Part shown: positions 2,593 through 36,242 of the stretch, piece by piece
Layout: each line of letters starts with the position of its first letter
Position numbering within the stretch: position 1 is the stretch's first letter
Assembly (NCBI GenBank): GCA_004195025.1
Contig: SGBB01000018.1
Span: 1 to 46,433 of the forward strand
Origin: Candidatus Acidulidesulfobacter diazotrophicus
Lineage (GTDB): Bacteria; SZUA-79; Acidulodesulfobacterales; Acidulodesulfobacteraceae
Direction: 5' to 3'
Length of the DNA: 46,433 nucleotides
Notes under the pieces: generated by a model
The model's input: only the letters and a program-made list of their open reading frames with translations
Told to the model about the DNA's origin: nothing
The model's database searches: none
Position numbers and translations under genes: made by a program

Positions 2593-2862
2593 ATGAGCGA
2601 AATAATAGAAATAGAAGTAAAAACCGGTTCAAAATTAAAAAAATTTGAAATATCGGAAAAAGCAGGCGGTAAAAAAATTAAACTTTATATTCCTGAAAGA
2701 CCTGTTGACAATAAAGCAAACGAAGCGGTAATAAAATATCTCTCCGAAATTTTAAACATTCCTAAAAAAAATATTGAAATTATTAAAGGACTAAAAGTTA
2801 AAAATAAACTTGTTCACATTTTAGGACGAGTTATAATGGCGGTCAGAATGAGGAATATGTAA
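2593..2862 (+). CDS. DUF167 (YggU-family) protein
   Basis: 89 residues matching the small DUF167 fold: KTGSKLKKFEI, then KIKLYIPERPVDNKANEAVIKYL, then LNIPKKNIEIIKGLKVKNKLVHILG. Function is unknown across the family. The last ten residues (VIMAVRMRNM) run past the usual family end, and this tail sequence is repeated about 875 bp downstream. Its stop lies one base from the stop of the convergent HEPN gene. Confidence 0.85.
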   Translation: MSEIIEIEVKTGSKLKKFEISEKAGGKKIKLYIPERPVDNKANEAVIKYLSEILNIPKKNIEIIKGLKVKNKLVHILGRVIMAVRMRNM

Positions 2863-2864
2863 AT
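2826..2864 (+). repeat. Imperfect direct repeat flanking the MNT/HEPN pair (left copy)
   Basis: ATGGCGGTCAGAATGAGGAA followed by TATGTAAAT recurs at 3703-3740 as ATGGCGGTAAGGATGAGGGG followed by GATGTAAAT. Both would encode MAVRMR(N/G)M and a stop. The two copies bracket the MNT/HEPN pair exactly. Confidence 0.6.
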
Positions 2865-3334
2865 TATCTTTTAAGACCTTTACTTTTATTTAGCCTGTTG
2901 TTTAAATCTTTAGTAAAGGCGTCTTCTGGTTTAAGAGTCTGATTTTGTTCAAGTAGATTGACCTTTTCTATTACAAATAATTTAACCTTTTCTGCGATTA
3001 ATATTGCTTCTTTTGCGTCCTCTAAAGTCGGTTCTATTATATCGTCATATCTTACGATGACGGCGTAATTTGTTAAATTACTTATATTTAATTCTTTAAG
3101 TTTATTAAAATCAACATCTATTTTATGGCAATCTGACAATACTGCTGTAATATCGTGAGTAAAATTAATTTCTTGATTATTGCAAACTAAGAATGCTTTT
3201 AAATATTTTTCAACTGATTGTTGACAATGAAAACAAATTCCTTCTAAAAAGTCATGGTTTTCAATAGACAAACTTTTTGCGATATTTAAATCTTTTTCGG
3301 CTTTTTGTATTAAAATCTGTGCATCTCTCTTCAT
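2864..3334 (-). CDS. HEPN domain protein of a second MNT/HEPN pair
   Basis: 156 residues, all helical. The HEPN core is visible: QKAEKDLNIAKSL, then FHCQQSVEKYLKAFLV at about residues 35-50, THDITAVLSDC, and VRYDDIIEPTLEDAKEAI. The RX4-6H RNase motif of HepT toxins is not present, so it may belong to the PF05168-type HEPN partners of nucleotidyltransferases rather than an active RNase. Its start overlaps the end of the nucleotidyltransferase gene upstream by four bases. The last 25 residues are basic and disordered. Confidence 0.8.
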   Translation of the reverse strand: MKRDAQILIQKAEKDLNIAKSLSIENHDFLEGICFHCQQSVEKYLKAFLVCNNQEINFTHDITAVLSDCHKIDVDFNKLKELNISNLTNYAVIVRYDDIIEPTLEDAKEAILIAEKVKLFVIEKVNLLEQNQTLKPEDAFTKDLNNRLNKSKGLKR

Positions 3335-3666
3335 AAACTTACTCCTTCTTTATTTACATAATAAGATAGAAAACCTGTTCCTATCTGCTGATGTTCATAA
3401 AGATTTTTAGATTTTATTATTATATCGGTTGATATGTCTATATTTTCTACTATTTTTTCACGGATAAATCGCAAAACGGTAATTAAATCATTTTTTATTA
3501 AATCTCTATTTGTAACCACAAAAAAATCCCAATCGCTATATTTTTTATAGTCTCCTCTTGCTCTGGAACCGAAAAGATAAATAGCTTCTACTTTATAGCC
3601 GGCCTTTTCTATTTCTTCAGTAATTATTTGTTTCGCAGTGTTTAGTATATATTCTTTATTTTCCAT
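3331..3666 (-). CDS. Minimal nucleotidyltransferase of a second MNT/HEPN pair
   Basis: 111 residues with YLFGSRARGDYKKYSDWDFFVV at about residues 30-51, the complete GSx10DxD nucleotidyltransferase motif, and a later DISTDIIIKS strand giving the third acidic residue. It is first gene of a two-gene minus-strand operon with the HEPN protein. Such pairs are toxin-antitoxin or phage-defence modules. The pair sits between two copies of an imperfect direct repeat (2826-2864 and 3703-3740). Confidence 0.85.
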   Translation of the reverse strand: MENKEYILNTAKQIITEEIEKAGYKVEAIYLFGSRARGDYKKYSDWDFFVVTNRDLIKNDLITVLRFIREKIVENIDISTDIIIKSKNLYEHQQIGTGFLSYYVNKEGVSL

Positions 3667-3702
3667 AACTATATTATAGCATATAATTTAATATAATAAA
3701 AT

Positions 3703-3740
3703 TACGGAATTATGGCGGTAAGGATGAGGGGGATGTAAAT
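3703..3740 (+). repeat. Imperfect direct repeat flanking the MNT/HEPN pair (right copy)
   Basis: Right-hand copy of the repeat described at 2826-2864. It lies in non-coding DNA just outside the nucleotidyltransferase start, consistent with a duplicated DUF167 3' end or a target duplication made when the module arrived (inference). Confidence 0.6.
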
Positions 3741-3800
3741 ATTTTAAAGAGGTTTTTCCTTATTTTATATTTAAAAATAAATACAAAATTGATAAGCGGC

Positions 3801-3950
3801 TTATCGGTTCCTGTCTCTTAATTTCTTCATCGCCATAAGAAAAATAACATCTAAAAAAATAAATACAACCGCTATTGGAAAATTACCGTAGGAAAATAAT
3901 ATTATTGCAAATATAAAAAACGGAATCGCTAAAATTATAGGAATAATCAT
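3801..3950 (-). CDS. 49-residue membrane peptide
   Basis: An ATG at 3950 opens a frame of 49 codons: two hydrophobic stretches (IIPIILAIPFFIFAIILF and FPIAVVFIFLDVIFLMAM) separated by SYGN, then a basic end KKLRDRNR. An AGGA lies about nine bases upstream of the start. It lies 40 bp downstream of the PD-(D/E)XK-like gene on the same strand, so it may be the last gene of that cluster. The hydrophobic-then-basic plan fits a two-helix inner-membrane peptide. No family recognised. Confidence 0.5.
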   Translation of the reverse strand: MIIPIILAIPFFIFAIILFSYGNFPIAVVFIFLDVIFLMAMKKLRDRNR

Positions 3951-3990
3951 TAAAATTTAGTCCTTTTTTTAAGAAAGTTTTCTTTTTAAT

Positions 3991-5010
3991 TTAAAGATTT
4001 TTAAGATATTTATCCGTTAAAGTTTTTATAGTATTTGATATTTCCGTATTATTTTCTATTAAAAATTTATCGTTGAATTCTTCCTCTATATTTGCTTTGT
4101 AAAAAATATTGTCGTTTAAATTAATATAATATAAATCGTCTGTTCCTTTGAAATTTTTTTTTATTAAATTTTTCTTGTGATCGTATATATTTTTCACCGA
4201 CACAATATACCATGCACTAAATTTTAAATCTCCGTTTGAAATAGCTAAAAAAACAGGTATAGATAACTTACTTTCAAGATTAATAAAACTTTCTATATCG
4301 TGTTTACTTATTCCAAATTCGTTATTTTTGTTCTTTCCGTAATTTTTTACATCAACAAAAACTCTAAATATGTTATCCAGCATTAAAATTAAGTCTGGCC
4401 GTTTGGCTCTATTATCCCGCAAAATATCACACATGCTGATTTTATTATTATCAATATAAAAAAACATCTTTTTTTTATTATTTAAAAAATCAATAAATTT
4501 ATATTCCGCGAATTTTCCTTTAACTAAATTTAAAACATTATAATTTTTTTTATAATTCTCCGATATAATATTGTTTATTGTTTCATAGTAAAGAAATTTA
4601 AGACTATCAATGGAATTATATATACTATCTAATATTTCATAATTATAATATTTATTATCGGTTAAATTTATTTTTACGTCATTTATAGACTGTTTAATTA
4701 AGCTAATGTCTTTTAAAATATTAGAATCCTTATTATTTACGTCTATTCCAAAGTCCGCAGATAATATTTTATTAATATCCTGATATAAATCTAATTTTTT
4801 AAAATCTATGTTTTTATCTTTAAACGCTAATTTAAGAATCTCAAACCAAAGTATAATGCTGCTGTTATTTTTACAAATTTCATCTTCAATATTTTTAATA
4901 TTATCTGTTGTTTTTTTATAATCTTCCTGCGCGGAAAAAGCATAATATTCAAGCTGTTCTATCCCATCAAAAAGGTTATAAAGTTCTCTAATTTTATCTA
5001 TATTAGTCAT
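3991..5010 (-). CDS. Putative PD-(D/E)XK nuclease-fold protein
   Basis: 339 residues, not recognised as a named family. The N-terminal half is helical and charged. The C-terminal half has the order of a PD-(D/E)XK active site: a helix with Glu (KGKFAEYKFIDFL, about residues 165-177), then RPDLILML (PD, about 205), then FRVFVDVKNYG (DVK, about 220), then a helix KHDIESFINLESKL. This layout is typical of restriction-like endonucleases, but it is read by eye only. The gene starts 21 bp downstream of an S24-type repressor gene on the same strand and precedes a small membrane peptide, a context compatible with a defence or prophage-derived cassette. Confidence 0.5.
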   Translation of the reverse strand: MTNIDKIRELYNLFDGIEQLEYYAFSAQEDYKKTTDNIKNIEDEICKNNSSIILWFEILKLAFKDKNIDFKKLDLYQDINKILSADFGIDVNNKDSNILKDISLIKQSINDVKINLTDNKYYNYEILDSIYNSIDSLKFLYYETINNIISENYKKNYNVLNLVKGKFAEYKFIDFLNNKKKMFFYIDNNKISMCDILRDNRAKRPDLILMLDNIFRVFVDVKNYGKNKNNEFGISKHDIESFINLESKLSIPVFLAISNGDLKFSAWYIVSVKNIYDHKKNLIKKNFKGTDDLYYINLNDNIFYKANIEEEFNDKFLIENNTEISNTIKTLTDKYLKNL

Positions 5011-5031
5011 TTTAACTTTTTTATTTAAGTT

Positions 5032-5726
5032 TTATATTTTTTGCCACACCCACACTACCCTGCCTATTACAAAATGATCGCTATCCGTTATTTCCTCTTT
5101 TTTAATAAAAATATTATCAAATTTCGGATTTTCGGATTTTAACGTTACGCCTTCCCTATTTTTTATGACATATTTTATCAATACGCCCTCGTAGTCAAGA
5201 TTAACGCAATAAATATAGCCTGATACTAATTCCTTATAATTTAGGTCTATGGCGACGTAAGCACCGTCTTTTATATATGGTTCCATACTAGGACCGATTA
5301 CCTTAACAATACTTAACTGCTCTCTGTAAAATTCCTTAGGTATTAAAAGGGTATTGATGGTTCTATCTCCGTTAAATCTATAAACTTTCCTGCACCTGCG
5401 AAGGAATAAACGGGGACTTTTTGATATTTAGATTCGTCTATAGATAAATCTTGTGATTGAGATTCGGAAAGGCAAGGGACGGAATTAATAGATTTACTTT
5501 TAGTTGCAGGAAAGAAATAATCTATGTCAACCTGAAGAATTTTTGCAATTTTTGCTAAATAATCAATTGCGATTTTGCTATAGCCGGATTCAAATCTTTG
5601 AATATAAATTGTTTCCATGTCTATTAATTCGGCTAATTTTGTCTGCGTATAACCCAATTCTTCACGTCTTTTCTTAATTAATAAACCTATTCCTTTAAAT
5701 ATTTTGTCGTTTTTAGTTTTAGGCAT
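5032..5726 (-). pseudogene. S24/LexA-like phage-type repressor with a one-base frameshift
   Basis: The first frame (5726 down to 5343) encodes an N-terminal XRE helix-turn-helix (residues about 10-65: LLIKKRREELGYTQTKLAEL, IDMETIYIQRFESG) and a linker ending in VPVYSFAGAGKF, where the Ala-Gly pair resembles the LexA/CI autocleavage site. The second frame supplies IVKVIGPSMEPYIKDGAYVA with the catalytic Ser, and later VLIKYV with the catalytic Lys. Joining the frames near 5355-5360 needs one extra base and gives about 231 residues, the usual length. There is no homopolymer at the break. Either the gene is inactivated or the read has a base missing. Confidence 0.82.
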
Positions 5727-5820
5727 AGCTTCTTCTAAATTGTTCTTTTATGTGAAATTAAGAAATTTTAACATATCATATTTAGCTTAGATTTTTCAAT
5801 AAATTTTTATTTTTATTTAC

Positions 5821-7332
5821 TTATTCAACCGTTATTTCTTCTGCATAAGACGGTATATAGGCATTGAAACCCAAAGGTTTAATTTTTTCTTTAAAAATTT
5901 CCATTTTATCGTCGTCGCCGTGAATAAGATATATTTTTGTTTTTGATTGGTTTTTTAATGCGCTGAGCCACTCTATAAGTTCTTTCTGGTCGGCATGCGA
6001 AGAAAAACCGTTTATAGTATAAACCGACGCATTTACGTCTATATGCTCCCCAAAAACTTTAATTGTCTTATCTCCTTCAACAATTCTTCGTCCCAATGTT
6101 CCTCTTGCCTGATATCCTATAAAAATAATAGAATTCTCTTTGCGCCATAAATTATGTTTTAAGTGATGAAGCATCCTTCCGCCGGTGAGCATACCGCTTC
6201 CGGCAATTATTATCGCGCCTTCTGAAAATTTATTTATTTCTTTAGATTCTTCTATATCTCTTGTTTCTGTGAGGTATGGTATTTCAAAAGGATTATTATT
6301 AGTAAATAACTGCAATTCGTCTTTTCTGAAATATTCAGGATTTCTAAGAAATATATCGGTTATATTTATTGCTAAAGGAGAATCAAGAAATATTTTGCAT
6401 TTCGGAAGTTCACCGCTTTTGTAAAACTCTTTTAATACATATAAGATATCTTGCGTTCTTTCCATAGCGTAGCTTGGTATCAAGACATTGCCACCGCCGT
6501 TAATTGTTTTTTGTATAATATTTAAAAGCTCAACTTTTGAATCGGCAAAACTTTTATGCATCCTGTCCCCGTAAGTAGTTTCAATATAAACGGCATCGGC
6601 TTCATCAGGGTAGGAAAAATTATTGACTATCGGTTTGTTTTTATTCCCTAGGTCTCCTGAAAATATAGCCGATTTATCGCCTATTGTAAGTTTTACGAAG
6701 CTTGAACCCAGAATATGCCCTGCATCTTGAATTTCTACGGCAATATTATGTTTTTCATCTATAACAAAAGGCGTGTTATAAGCTAATATAGGGTTAAAAT
6801 GGTCTAAACTTTCAAACACATCAATTTCATTATATAAAAGTTCCGCATTTGTATTGCTTTCATTTTTACCGCTTTCGTTTGTATTATGTGTATTATGATG
6901 GTTATTTTGGTGTGTTTCGTTTTTTATGTGAGCGGAATTAGATTTATTTGAATTTAAAATATTTTCTTCCGTTGTTTTTTTGGGATTATATCTGAGCCGT
7001 CTTTTTAAATTATGTTTGTAATCTTCAAGCATAATTTTAGCGGTATCAAGCATTATTAGCCTTGCAAGCTGAAAAGTAGGTTTTGTGCAGTAAATTTTTC
7101 CTTTAAAACCGCCTTTTATAAGCATTGGAATTCTGCCGCAATGGTCAAGATGCGCATGTGTCAGTATTAAATAATCAATCTCTTCCGGATTAAAACCTAA
7201 ATTAGAATTTTTGCTTTCTTCATCTTTGCCCTGAAAAAGTCCGCAATCTATCATTACAGAAACATCACTTTCTTTAACTATATGGCAGCTTCCCGTGACA
7301 GTTTTTGCCGCTCCAAAAGATTGTATTTTCAA
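5821..7332 (-). CDS. Beta-CASP metallo-beta-lactamase RNA hydrolase
   Basis: 503 residues. The metallo-beta-lactamase signature HAHLDH is at residues 59-64. Later motifs are DAGHILGSSFVKL, FSGDLGN, the beta-CASP core (YIETTYGDR, GGNVLIPSYAMERTQDILY, GSGMLTGGRMLHHLKHNL, GYQARGTLGRRI) and a C-terminal NGFSSHADQKELIEWL followed by YLIHGD. These define a CPSF-73/Ysh1-type nuclease, often annotated as exoribonuclease or RNA-specific MBL protein. Between about residues 115 and 165 is an inserted His/Asn/Ser-rich tract (HQNNHHNTHNTNESGKNE), absent from typical homologues. It is transcribed alone on the minus strand. Confidence 0.92.
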   Translation of the reverse strand: MKIQSFGAAKTVTGSCHIVKESDVSVMIDCGLFQGKDEESKNSNLGFNPEEIDYLILTHAHLDHCGRIPMLIKGGFKGKIYCTKPTFQLARLIMLDTAKIMLEDYKHNLKRRLRYNPKKTTEENILNSNKSNSAHIKNETHQNNHHNTHNTNESGKNESNTNAELLYNEIDVFESLDHFNPILAYNTPFVIDEKHNIAVEIQDAGHILGSSFVKLTIGDKSAIFSGDLGNKNKPIVNNFSYPDEADAVYIETTYGDRMHKSFADSKVELLNIIQKTINGGGNVLIPSYAMERTQDILYVLKEFYKSGELPKCKIFLDSPLAINITDIFLRNPEYFRKDELQLFTNNNPFEIPYLTETRDIEESKEINKFSEGAIIIAGSGMLTGGRMLHHLKHNLWRKENSIIFIGYQARGTLGRRIVEGDKTIKVFGEHIDVNASVYTINGFSSHADQKELIEWLSALKNQSKTKIYLIHGDDDKMEIFKEKIKPLGFNAYIPSYAEEITVE

Positions 7333-7807: not shown

Positions 7808-8230
7808 ATGTACTATTCAAATAATTTAAAAAAAATAACATATTTTTTTGTTTTTTCTTTTATAATAATTACTTTTTCCGTTTTTTTATCAGGTTGTGCG
7901 GCTAAACCAAAGCCAAAACATGTATATTCTTTAAAATACTATAAATCTCATATAAAAAAGGCAAAAGCCGAAGTATTTAGCTGCAATCAAACCCTTGTTG
8001 CCGCTATCGCTCCTCATATTCCGAAAAAACCGATGCGCTGGAAAAAAAATATTGGAGATAATTTTAGGCATCTTGCCGATTTATACGGAACTCTCCTTGA
8101 ACCTGTTCAAACATATAGGAATATTATAACAGGCGGCGGATATAGTTTTAAAAATTGTATAAATGCTTTATCGGTGCTTTATCATAAAAGCAAAGGAATA
8201 TATAAAAAACAGCATCCTTCAATGTTTTAA
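7808..8230 (+). CDS. Small predicted lipoprotein of unknown function
   Basis: 140 residues. An N-terminal hydrophobic segment (about 11-30) ends in LSGC, a lipobox with Cys at about residue 30, so the mature protein would be a lipid-anchored periplasmic protein of about 110 residues. The mature part is basic, with FSCNQTL and SFKNCINAL holding two further cysteines that could pair. The family is not recognised. Its 3' end overlaps the convergent vapC gene by 12 bases. Confidence 0.7.
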   Translation: MYYSNNLKKITYFFVFSFIIITFSVFLSGCAAKPKPKHVYSLKYYKSHIKKAKAEVFSCNQTLVAAIAPHIPKKPMRWKKNIGDNFRHLADLYGTLLEPVQTYRNIITGGGYSFKNCINALSVLYHKSKGIYKKQHPSMF

Positions 8231-36008: not shown

Positions 36009-36089
36009 TTAAATCCTATGATAGAAAATATTGAGGTATTTCAAAGTCAATAAATGCTGGATTCCTGCTTTCGCAGGAATGACAGTTTA
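36009..36089. repeat. Repeat copy D, interrupted by MITE copy 2
   Basis: TTAAATCCTATGATAGAAAA, ATTTCAAAGTCAATAAATGC, TGGATTCCTGCTTTCGCAGG, AATGACAGTTT, then directly the MITE end. The left part matches copy C, so the MITE landed within an older repeat. Confidence 0.75.
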
Positions 36090-36242
36090 ACCCAACTTCA
36101 CCATAATTACAGGCAACCTGTCGATATTGCTGTATTTATGGGGGCAACAAAAATGTCTATGGGGACTACAAAATAAAAAATAAAATGTATTAATATTAAT
36201 GGGTTATAATTTTAGAATAATAAAAGTGGTGAAGTTGGGTTA
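36088..36242. mobile_element. MITE copy 2, 151 bp with TA target duplication
   Basis: Element 36090-36240 with ACCCAACTTCACCA and TGGTGAAGTTGGGT ends and TA on both sides. Same length as copy 1 and differing by about three bases, including the inner GGGGGCAACAAAAATGTCTA and TGGGGACTACAAAATAAAAA tracts. Confidence 0.92.

Follow-up and report, generated by a model that had tools for sequence, protein, structure and literature searches.

A probable PD-(D/E)XK nuclease behind a broken S24-type repressor, in what appears to be a mobile-element fragment stranded in the chromosome of Candidatus Acidulidesulfobacter diazotrophicus

The minus strand of positions 3801-5726 in a 46,433-nucleotide stretch of Candidatus Acidulidesulfobacter diazotrophicus DNA (contig SGBB01000018.1; the whole stretch is called the window below) carries a broken S24-type repressor gene, an open reading frame (ORF) for a 339-amino-acid (aa) protein, and an ORF for a 49-aa peptide. 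An initial annotation had read these three as a candidate defence cassette, and the coordinates confirm the order and spacing on which it drew: the C-terminal repressor fragment (5032-5286) lies 21 bp from the 339-aa ORF (3991-5010), which in turn lies 40 bp from the 49-aa ORF (3801-3950). The same strand continues with genes for an MNT-type nucleotidyltransferase (111 aa, 3331-3666; Pfam Polbeta E 2.6e-11, NTP_transf_2 E 5e-11) and a HEPN protein (156 aa, 2864-3334; Pfam HEPN E 2.2e-24). The 339-aa, MNT, and HEPN ORFs are all intact.

The repressor does not form one uninterrupted reading frame. A fragment with a helix-turn-helix (HTH) domain (5343-5726; Pfam HTH_3 E 6.3e-14) that includes an SFAGAG region and the C-terminal protease fragment (Pfam Peptidase_S24 E 8.8e-12), which contains SMEP and IKY, occupy different frames, and the break falls between SFAGAG and SMEP; the gene is thus S24-type and frameshifted, as annotated. 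We take SFAGAG to be the cleavage-site region and the Ser of SMEP to be the catalytic residue, and these, together with the Lys of IK, are all kept in the fragments. The two domains are those of LexA/CI-type repressors and are joined in a single chain in the homologue of genome G003. Relatives were drawn throughout from one small set of 30 draft genomes, own genome included, which was identical at the order, class, and phylum level (G and C numbers denote its genomes and contigs). Compared with the intact repressor of G008:C64, the window is 81% identical over 5035-5364 and 71% identical over 5328-5726. In the own genome, no second S24-domain protein of this family was found at E<=1e-10; one further match to the family, on contig C12, spans the HTH part only.

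The active-site order that had been noticed in the 339-aa protein is present, with E169 followed by P205-D206 and then by D220-V-K222. Homologues occur in four of the 29 other genomes (55, 55, 53, and 35% identity), and in an alignment of the five full members (A1) the stretches K-G-K-x-A-E169, K-R-P-D206, and D220-V-K-N-Y are kept in every one. A profile search added a weak sixth member (E 3.2e-4), a 277-aa protein in G016:C7 in which the E, D, D, and K residues recur behind an N-terminal HTH domain (HTH_3 E 2.5e-10); E169, D206, D220, and K222 are invariant in all six sequences of a second alignment that includes the window (A2). Between the two closest homologues, those of G023 and G002, the ratio of nonsynonymous to synonymous substitution rates is ~0.1 (0.062/0.598), which indicates purifying selection. 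Because of these homologues and this ratio, we regard the ORF as more than a chance reading frame.

A model of the full-length protein had a mean predicted local distance difference test (pLDDT) score of 61.9, with a poorly modelled helical first half and better values from about residue 160, and a model of the core alone reached a mean pLDDT of 78.4 and a predicted template-modelling score of 0.78. With the core model, the best Foldseek matches were Hjc resolvases (E 3.9e-5), as were the top structures in a comparison with VIA: 2wcw (Z 11.6, root-mean-square deviation (rmsd) 2.7, 120 residues), 2wj0 (Z 11.5, rmsd 2.9, 123 residues), and 1gef (Z 11.3, rmsd 2.6, 113 residues). The PD-(D/E)XK fold that had been guessed from the motif is therefore also that of the predicted structure: the modelled protein ends in a PD-(D/E)XK domain and, given its conserved residues, is a probable nuclease.

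The Pfam model PDDEXK_14 (PF24579) scored 16.5 bits, below its gathering cut-off of 25, no PADLOC family matched either the 339-aa protein or the 49-aa peptide at E<=1, and no solved structure related to the 339-aa protein by sequence was found. Relatives of the 339-aa protein were absent from 72,556 plasmid and 50,697 phage records at E<=0.01 and from the viral contigs searched; the protein matches phrog_28481, a family of unknown function, at E 2.7e-4. A search of genome contigs with the 339-aa protein returned at least three loci, which we take to be G006:C83, G023:C37, and G003:C41. Pfam matches of family members to ISAV nucleoprotein, cellulase, and the like were weak and were put down to chance.

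Both ends of the stretch that contains these genes can be placed by comparison with related chromosomes. On the left, a chromosomal gene that by eye is of the DUF167 type (2593-2822, plus strand; collinear with G006 and G003) has lost its native 3' end and is fused in frame to the 3' end of a second, convergent S24-like plasmid repressor gene (2823-2862, plus strand; LGRVIMAVRMRNM). DUF167 matches in relatives mostly stop at residue 76-77 of the 89 encoded by the ORF at 2593-2862, and the tail of that ORF, ILGRVIMAVRMRNM, is not DUF167; it is similar to the C-terminal end of that second repressor (ILGRVIMAVRMRRI in locus L005). At the DNA level, positions 2812-2858 match the end of the repressor gene in G003:C41 with a score of 62, where none of 200 shuffles scored above 27; matches to G002 (49) and G008 (42) likewise outscored their shuffled controls, unlike those to G006, G016, and G023. 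On the right, the 24 bp that precede the repressor gene (5762-5785, minus strand) are the same in G008:C64 and G024:C19 and look promoter-like. Beyond the junction at 5785/5786, the 23 bases at 5786-5808 (plus strand) are chromosomal: they recur in G003, on contig C19, two bases past the DUF167 gene, after which the sequences diverge. Next in the window is a chromosomal metallo-beta-lactamase/beta-CASP gene (5821-7332, minus strand), which in G006 adjoins the DUF167 gene at a distance of 34 bp without any insert.

From the unfilled site in G003, the insert is therefore 2823-5785, or ~2,963 bp, with a left junction that is ambiguous by a few shared bases. A repeat scan of 2700-5950 revealed no direct repeats at the junctions of the kind that mark a transposon or integrase site, and the insert ends and the target have only short AT-rich matches in common. 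These alignments indicate that the chromosome has retained a stranded 2.96-kb mobile-element fragment and that the three genes lie on it. Of the two MNT/HEPN pairs that had been cited as a defence neighbourhood, the one at 2864-3666 lies in the same insert, as cargo, but the one at 1560-2152 is chromosomal, with its HEPN gene cut by an element that resembles a miniature inverted-repeat transposable element (MITE).

The four other nuclease homologues are on contigs that are mostly plasmid-like. A regulator gene directly precedes the nuclease at all five loci: G003 and G006 have a full S24 repressor there, the window the frameshifted one, and G002 and G023 a shorter HTH-only protein (absence of the S24 domain established by domain scan for G002 and judged by sequence for G023). 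In these four genomes, the nuclease is flanked on one side by small divergent HTH and excisionase-type genes and on the other by a convergent second S24-like repressor gene and a ParA-like gene, and the longer contigs also have replication, ParB-, relaxase-, SSB-, and TrbL-like genes (the excisionase label scores above its NCBIfam cut-off, the one relaxase and the one TrbL tested score below theirs, and the remaining labels were assigned by eye). By gene content, the carriers look like mobile, conjugative-plasmid-like elements. The S24 repressor of G008:C64 had no relative in viral contigs, so no element could be shown to be a phage.

The membrane peptide does not share this conservation. Its two hydrophobic segments (residues 2-18 and 24-40) agree with the two-helix membrane peptide initially described, but no homologue was found in the 30 genomes at E<0.01 (best non-self match E 0.0125), and it is present only in the window among the five nuclease loci. 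In the collections searched, then, no other genome keeps the three genes together; what remains of the proposed cassette is the regulator-nuclease pair. The nuclease gene is followed in G006 by a membrane protein with a weak, below-cut-off PH-domain match, in G002 by a lipoprotein without an EexN match, and in G003 by no gene at all before the convergent repressor. In G023 it is followed by a lipoprotein that passes the curated cut-off for EexN (NF033894, Eex_IncN; 34.6 bits against 33), unlike the 49-aa peptide of the window, which is not EexN; a small membrane protein, SHOCT-like by eye, comes next. A rule that the third gene always encodes a membrane protein or lipoprotein was considered and dropped: it holds at four of the five loci, but with different proteins, and fails in G003. 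Since the proteins differ, and the same kinds also occupy slots without a nuclease (G017:C58, G008:C56), we did not use their recurrence as evidence for a cassette.

A broader view of what follows the repressor was obtained from the repressor family itself, for which the search gave 48 matches, 25 spanning the S24 half (window included) and 23 the HTH only. At 24 of the 25 S24 loci we read which gene of 45 codons or more comes next on the same strand, and the 25th (G008:C122) was read for ORFs of more than 90 aa; three short ORFs were dropped by eye as unlikely genes (71 aa at G013:C61, where a longer gene lies opposite, and 48 aa at G006:C35 and G016:C43). The gene starts between -22 and +35 bp from the repressor stop at 17 of the 24 loci and 82-228 bp from it at six. 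These first genes are varied: the PD-(D/E)XK protein at three loci (window included), DUF6037 at two (one of the two copies tested), 157-159-aa HRDC-type proteins at four and 138-aa HRDC-like proteins at two (labels by eye), an otherwise unknown 206-211-aa family at three (grouped by eye), and, once each, a 140-aa unknown, a type II methylase, a GmrSD_N protein, an AAA ATPase, a 206-aa unknown, a 1253-aa HRDC-helicase, and a DUF3800 protein; two further loci have short unknowns farther from the repressor. Genes other than the nuclease thus follow the same S24 family at 21 of 24 loci. The nuclease gene starts -22, +21, and +28 bp from the S24 gene at its three S24 loci, a spacing that is only suggestive of co-transcription. 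Where the contig reaches far enough, the S24 repressor usually faces a small divergent HTH gene.

When ten chosen cargo proteins were compared with PADLOC models, eight had a match at E<=1e-3: the single locus G004:C42 supplied three, one is encoded by a second gene, and one is the helicase of G016:C7, which is outside the S24 set. Because methylases and ATPases match many models, these matches are suggestive only. Taken at face value, the comparison of loci indicates that slot cargo is exchanged between related elements, and some of what is swapped in belongs to established types of defence gene.

Several individual slots deserve mention. In G016:C7 (L018:4215-7897), the HTH-PD-(D/E)XK fusion is beside a 934-aa helicase that matches Mokosh MkoC (PADLOC E 3.1e-78). 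The G004:C42 block (L138:1435-5331) has the GmrSD_N protein, then an NgoFVII-type restriction enzyme (PADLOC REase_II E 1.3e-105) and Vsr, and also, in convergent orientation, an ORF with the look of a cytosine methylase. DUF6037 directly follows the S24 repressor at L133:2750-3325 (G008:C64, E 9.3e-31) and at L151:2647-3222 (G002:C65), and is by position a candidate defence gene.

The two halves of the repressors differ in their conservation. Comparison of 16 full repressors (120 pairs; the broken window repressor left out) gave 26 pairs with 93% identity or more from the cleavage site onward, formed by nine repressors of three HTH classes; the HTH halves of these same pairs are 18-34% identical in 20 cases and 84-100% identical in six. 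The repressors of G024:C19 and G004:C42, for example, are 99% identical in the S24 half and 31% in the HTH half, and those of G011:C2 and G004:C125 are 99% and 18% identical, respectively. Intergenic regions are alike within one HTH class, and the catalytic Ser and cleavage-site residues are present in 14 of the 16 proteins. Swapping of the HTH half around a near-constant S24 half, as these identities suggest, is the pattern expected of changing immunity specificity.

In G008:C64 and G024:C19, whose repressors belong to the window's class, three 14-bp operator-like copies lie between the repressor and the Cro-like gene, a number reached in zero and one, respectively, of 100 shuffles (14-mers, one mismatch; a setting picked after an earlier test described below). 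The 14-mer is absent from window positions 5600-5900 even at up to three mismatches. Control of the local nuclease by this repressor is implausible because the gene is frameshifted, the operator-like sites have been left behind, and the genome has no other S24-domain match of this family at E<=1e-10; the damage-triggered release proposed for the window is implausible on the same grounds.

With somewhat more belief than doubt, we read the three genes as part of a stranded mobile-element fragment that derives from a lambda-like immunity region with a cargo slot in the position of rex. On intact elements, an operator region would separate the S24 (LexA/CI-type) repressor from a small, opposing Cro-like HTH gene, and the slot would be what follows the repressor, ending, on nuclease-carrying elements, at the second, convergent repressor gene; the window cargo would comprise the PD-(D/E)XK protein, the 49-aa membrane peptide, and the MNT/HEPN pair. 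The repressor would silence replication and transfer genes, and its transcript would continue into the cargo, so that the nuclease would be made while the element is quiescent and could keep out rival mobile DNA through cleavage of that DNA or of its branched intermediates; lipoproteins in the slot may block entry. The nuclease of the window, if expressed, would escape repressor control, with the frameshift in place and the operator-like sites gone.

The layout has a well-known counterpart. In lambda, the CI repressor gene is followed on the same strand by rexA and rexB, with the Cro gene divergent; here, likewise, a CI-type repressor gene is followed by a same-strand gene for a cytosolic protein and opposed by a divergent Cro-like gene, and in the window and in G006 a membrane protein also follows. 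Pfam holds Rex models, and neither the 339-aa nor the 49-aa protein matched a Rex family there at E<=1, in a search run without a positive control. The 434 repressor and Hex are on one PRM mRNA (PMC3564112), an exclusion gene of phage Fc02 is apparently on the repressor transcript (PMC9936078), and a RexAB-type defence is described for Pseudomonas putida (PMC12894663). The differences from lambda and 434 are that the first cargo gene here encodes a PD-(D/E)XK protein, that the slot content varies, and that the carriers look conjugative. Among the titles and abstract openings consulted, mostly outside subscription journals, none described this slot or the nuclease family.

A bolder extension, which we put forward as speculation and hold to be rather unlikely as a whole, is that the HTH half, operators, Cro-like partner, and cargo are exchanged together by recombination around the near-constant S24 half, so that each element would acquire a fresh immunity specificity along with a fresh exclusion weapon; the 339-aa family would then be a new class of repressor-coupled PD-(D/E)XK exclusion nuclease, HTH-fused in G016.

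Several observations weigh against the cargo-slot reading. Two of the 16 full repressors (G001:C5 and G013:C61) do not have the catalytic Ser and cleavage-site residues, G013:C61 is also the one locus of the 24 with no convincing same-strand cargo, and G008:C122 has no ORF longer than 90 aa within ~2 kb. The 24 loci are not independent, as some are near-identical copies in different genomes, and only five full nuclease homologues are known, all from within the 30 related genomes. In the PADLOC comparison of ten chosen proteins, matches were seen for only four of the 24 first genes (methylase, GmrSD_N, AAA ATPase, and DUF3800) and for neither DUF6037 nor the 209-aa protein, and the slot may carry traits other than defence. 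The operator-like repeats are similarly restricted: the first repeat test (13-mers, two mismatches, 30 shuffles each, on eight intergenic regions and the window stretch) was significant nowhere, the later 14-mer test was significant in two of eight regions, which are related to each other and belong to one repressor class, and the other six were not significant. With up to two mismatches, the 14-mer also occurs at window positions 1731, 4645, and 40987, the second of which is inside the nuclease gene. Finally, the frameshift could be an assembly error.

For the window alone, it is quite conceivable, if on balance we doubt it, that the copy is an inert relic of plasmid integration, which would be compatible with the cargo-slot reading of the intact elements. 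The broken repressor, the lost operator-like sites, and the second repressor cut down to its 3' end are what such a relic would look like, but the intact 339-aa, MNT, and HEPN ORFs and the retained catalytic residues of the nuclease argue against decay, and a recent insertion would look alike.

It is unlikely, in our judgement, that the nuclease is instead a Holliday-junction-resolvase-like housekeeping enzyme of the element, serving replication or dimer resolution rather than exclusion. Hjc and RecU resolvases are its closest folds, and we take the K-G-x-x-x-E start to resemble that of Hjc. The fold match does not single out Hjc, however, because other PD-(D/E)XK families have the same fold: the SPARDA effector nuclease is tied with Hjc in one structure (9qcc, Z 11.2, rmsd 3.6, 139 residues) and scores somewhat lower in another (9vx6, Z 10.3, rmsd 3.9, 138 residues), and DpnI reaches Z 9.1 (rmsd 4.2, 146 residues). 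The 339-aa protein further differs from Hjc in its extra ~155-residue helical N-terminal half, its identity of only 11-18%, and its repressor-linked context. A search of the own genome with the Pfam Hjc model (PF01870) found nothing in the window and one sub-threshold place on contig C2, and Hjc was not among the Pfam matches of the five nuclease-family members at E<=10. Counting against this rival, too, unrelated genes take the place of the nuclease at 21 of the 24 loci with the same repressor family. The likeness to SPARDA is in the PD-(D/E)XK domain; no Argonaute was noticed among neighbouring ORFs read by eye, and no search was aimed at one.

Very improbable, finally, is the scheme of the initial annotation, a defence operon whose S24 repressor senses DNA damage and, once cleaved (with RecA as the trigger), frees a nuclease and a membrane peptide: the repressor and nuclease genes are co-directional and close, and most full repressors keep the presumed cleavage-site and catalytic residues, but the window repressor is broken and its promoter region is devoid of operator-like sites, the cargo behind the same repressor family is mostly unrelated to the nuclease, the divergent HTH gene that the repressor usually faces is as expected of an element's own switch, and at two of the five nuclease loci the regulator has no S24 domain. 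Such a scheme would be possible in principle, given the damage-responsive control of other immune operons, as reported for CapK/CapS (PMC13373217).

If the cargo-slot reading is correct, cargo in this poorly studied bacterial group, undescribed defence genes among it, could be sought through the S24 repressor gene, since any gene that follows it would be a candidate, and the phage rule by which neighbours of the repressor gene protect the carrier would apply to conjugative-type elements as well. The present locus would then show a chromosome capturing such a slot with its control switch removed.

Some features of the chromosomal surroundings were also noted. At the end of G003:C19 (L023 1-200), the 23 bases that match the right flank are followed by other sequence until the contig ends, and because of this difference the spot after DUF167 may have taken a second insertion in that genome. 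A 140-aa lipoprotein gene at window positions 7808-8230, outside the insert and near a VapBC-like pair, is EexN-like at 24.8 bits (cut-off 33) and may be another element-derived gene. The MITE-like element at 2133-2285 is 153 bp long, with 18-bp inverted ends starting TTAACCC, and the chromosomal HEPN gene that it interrupts is intact in G006 (170 aa) and G003 (173 aa). With 40 of 114 candidates scored, its own genome has at least 26 matches to it, itself included; another of these lies in the window at 36087-36239.

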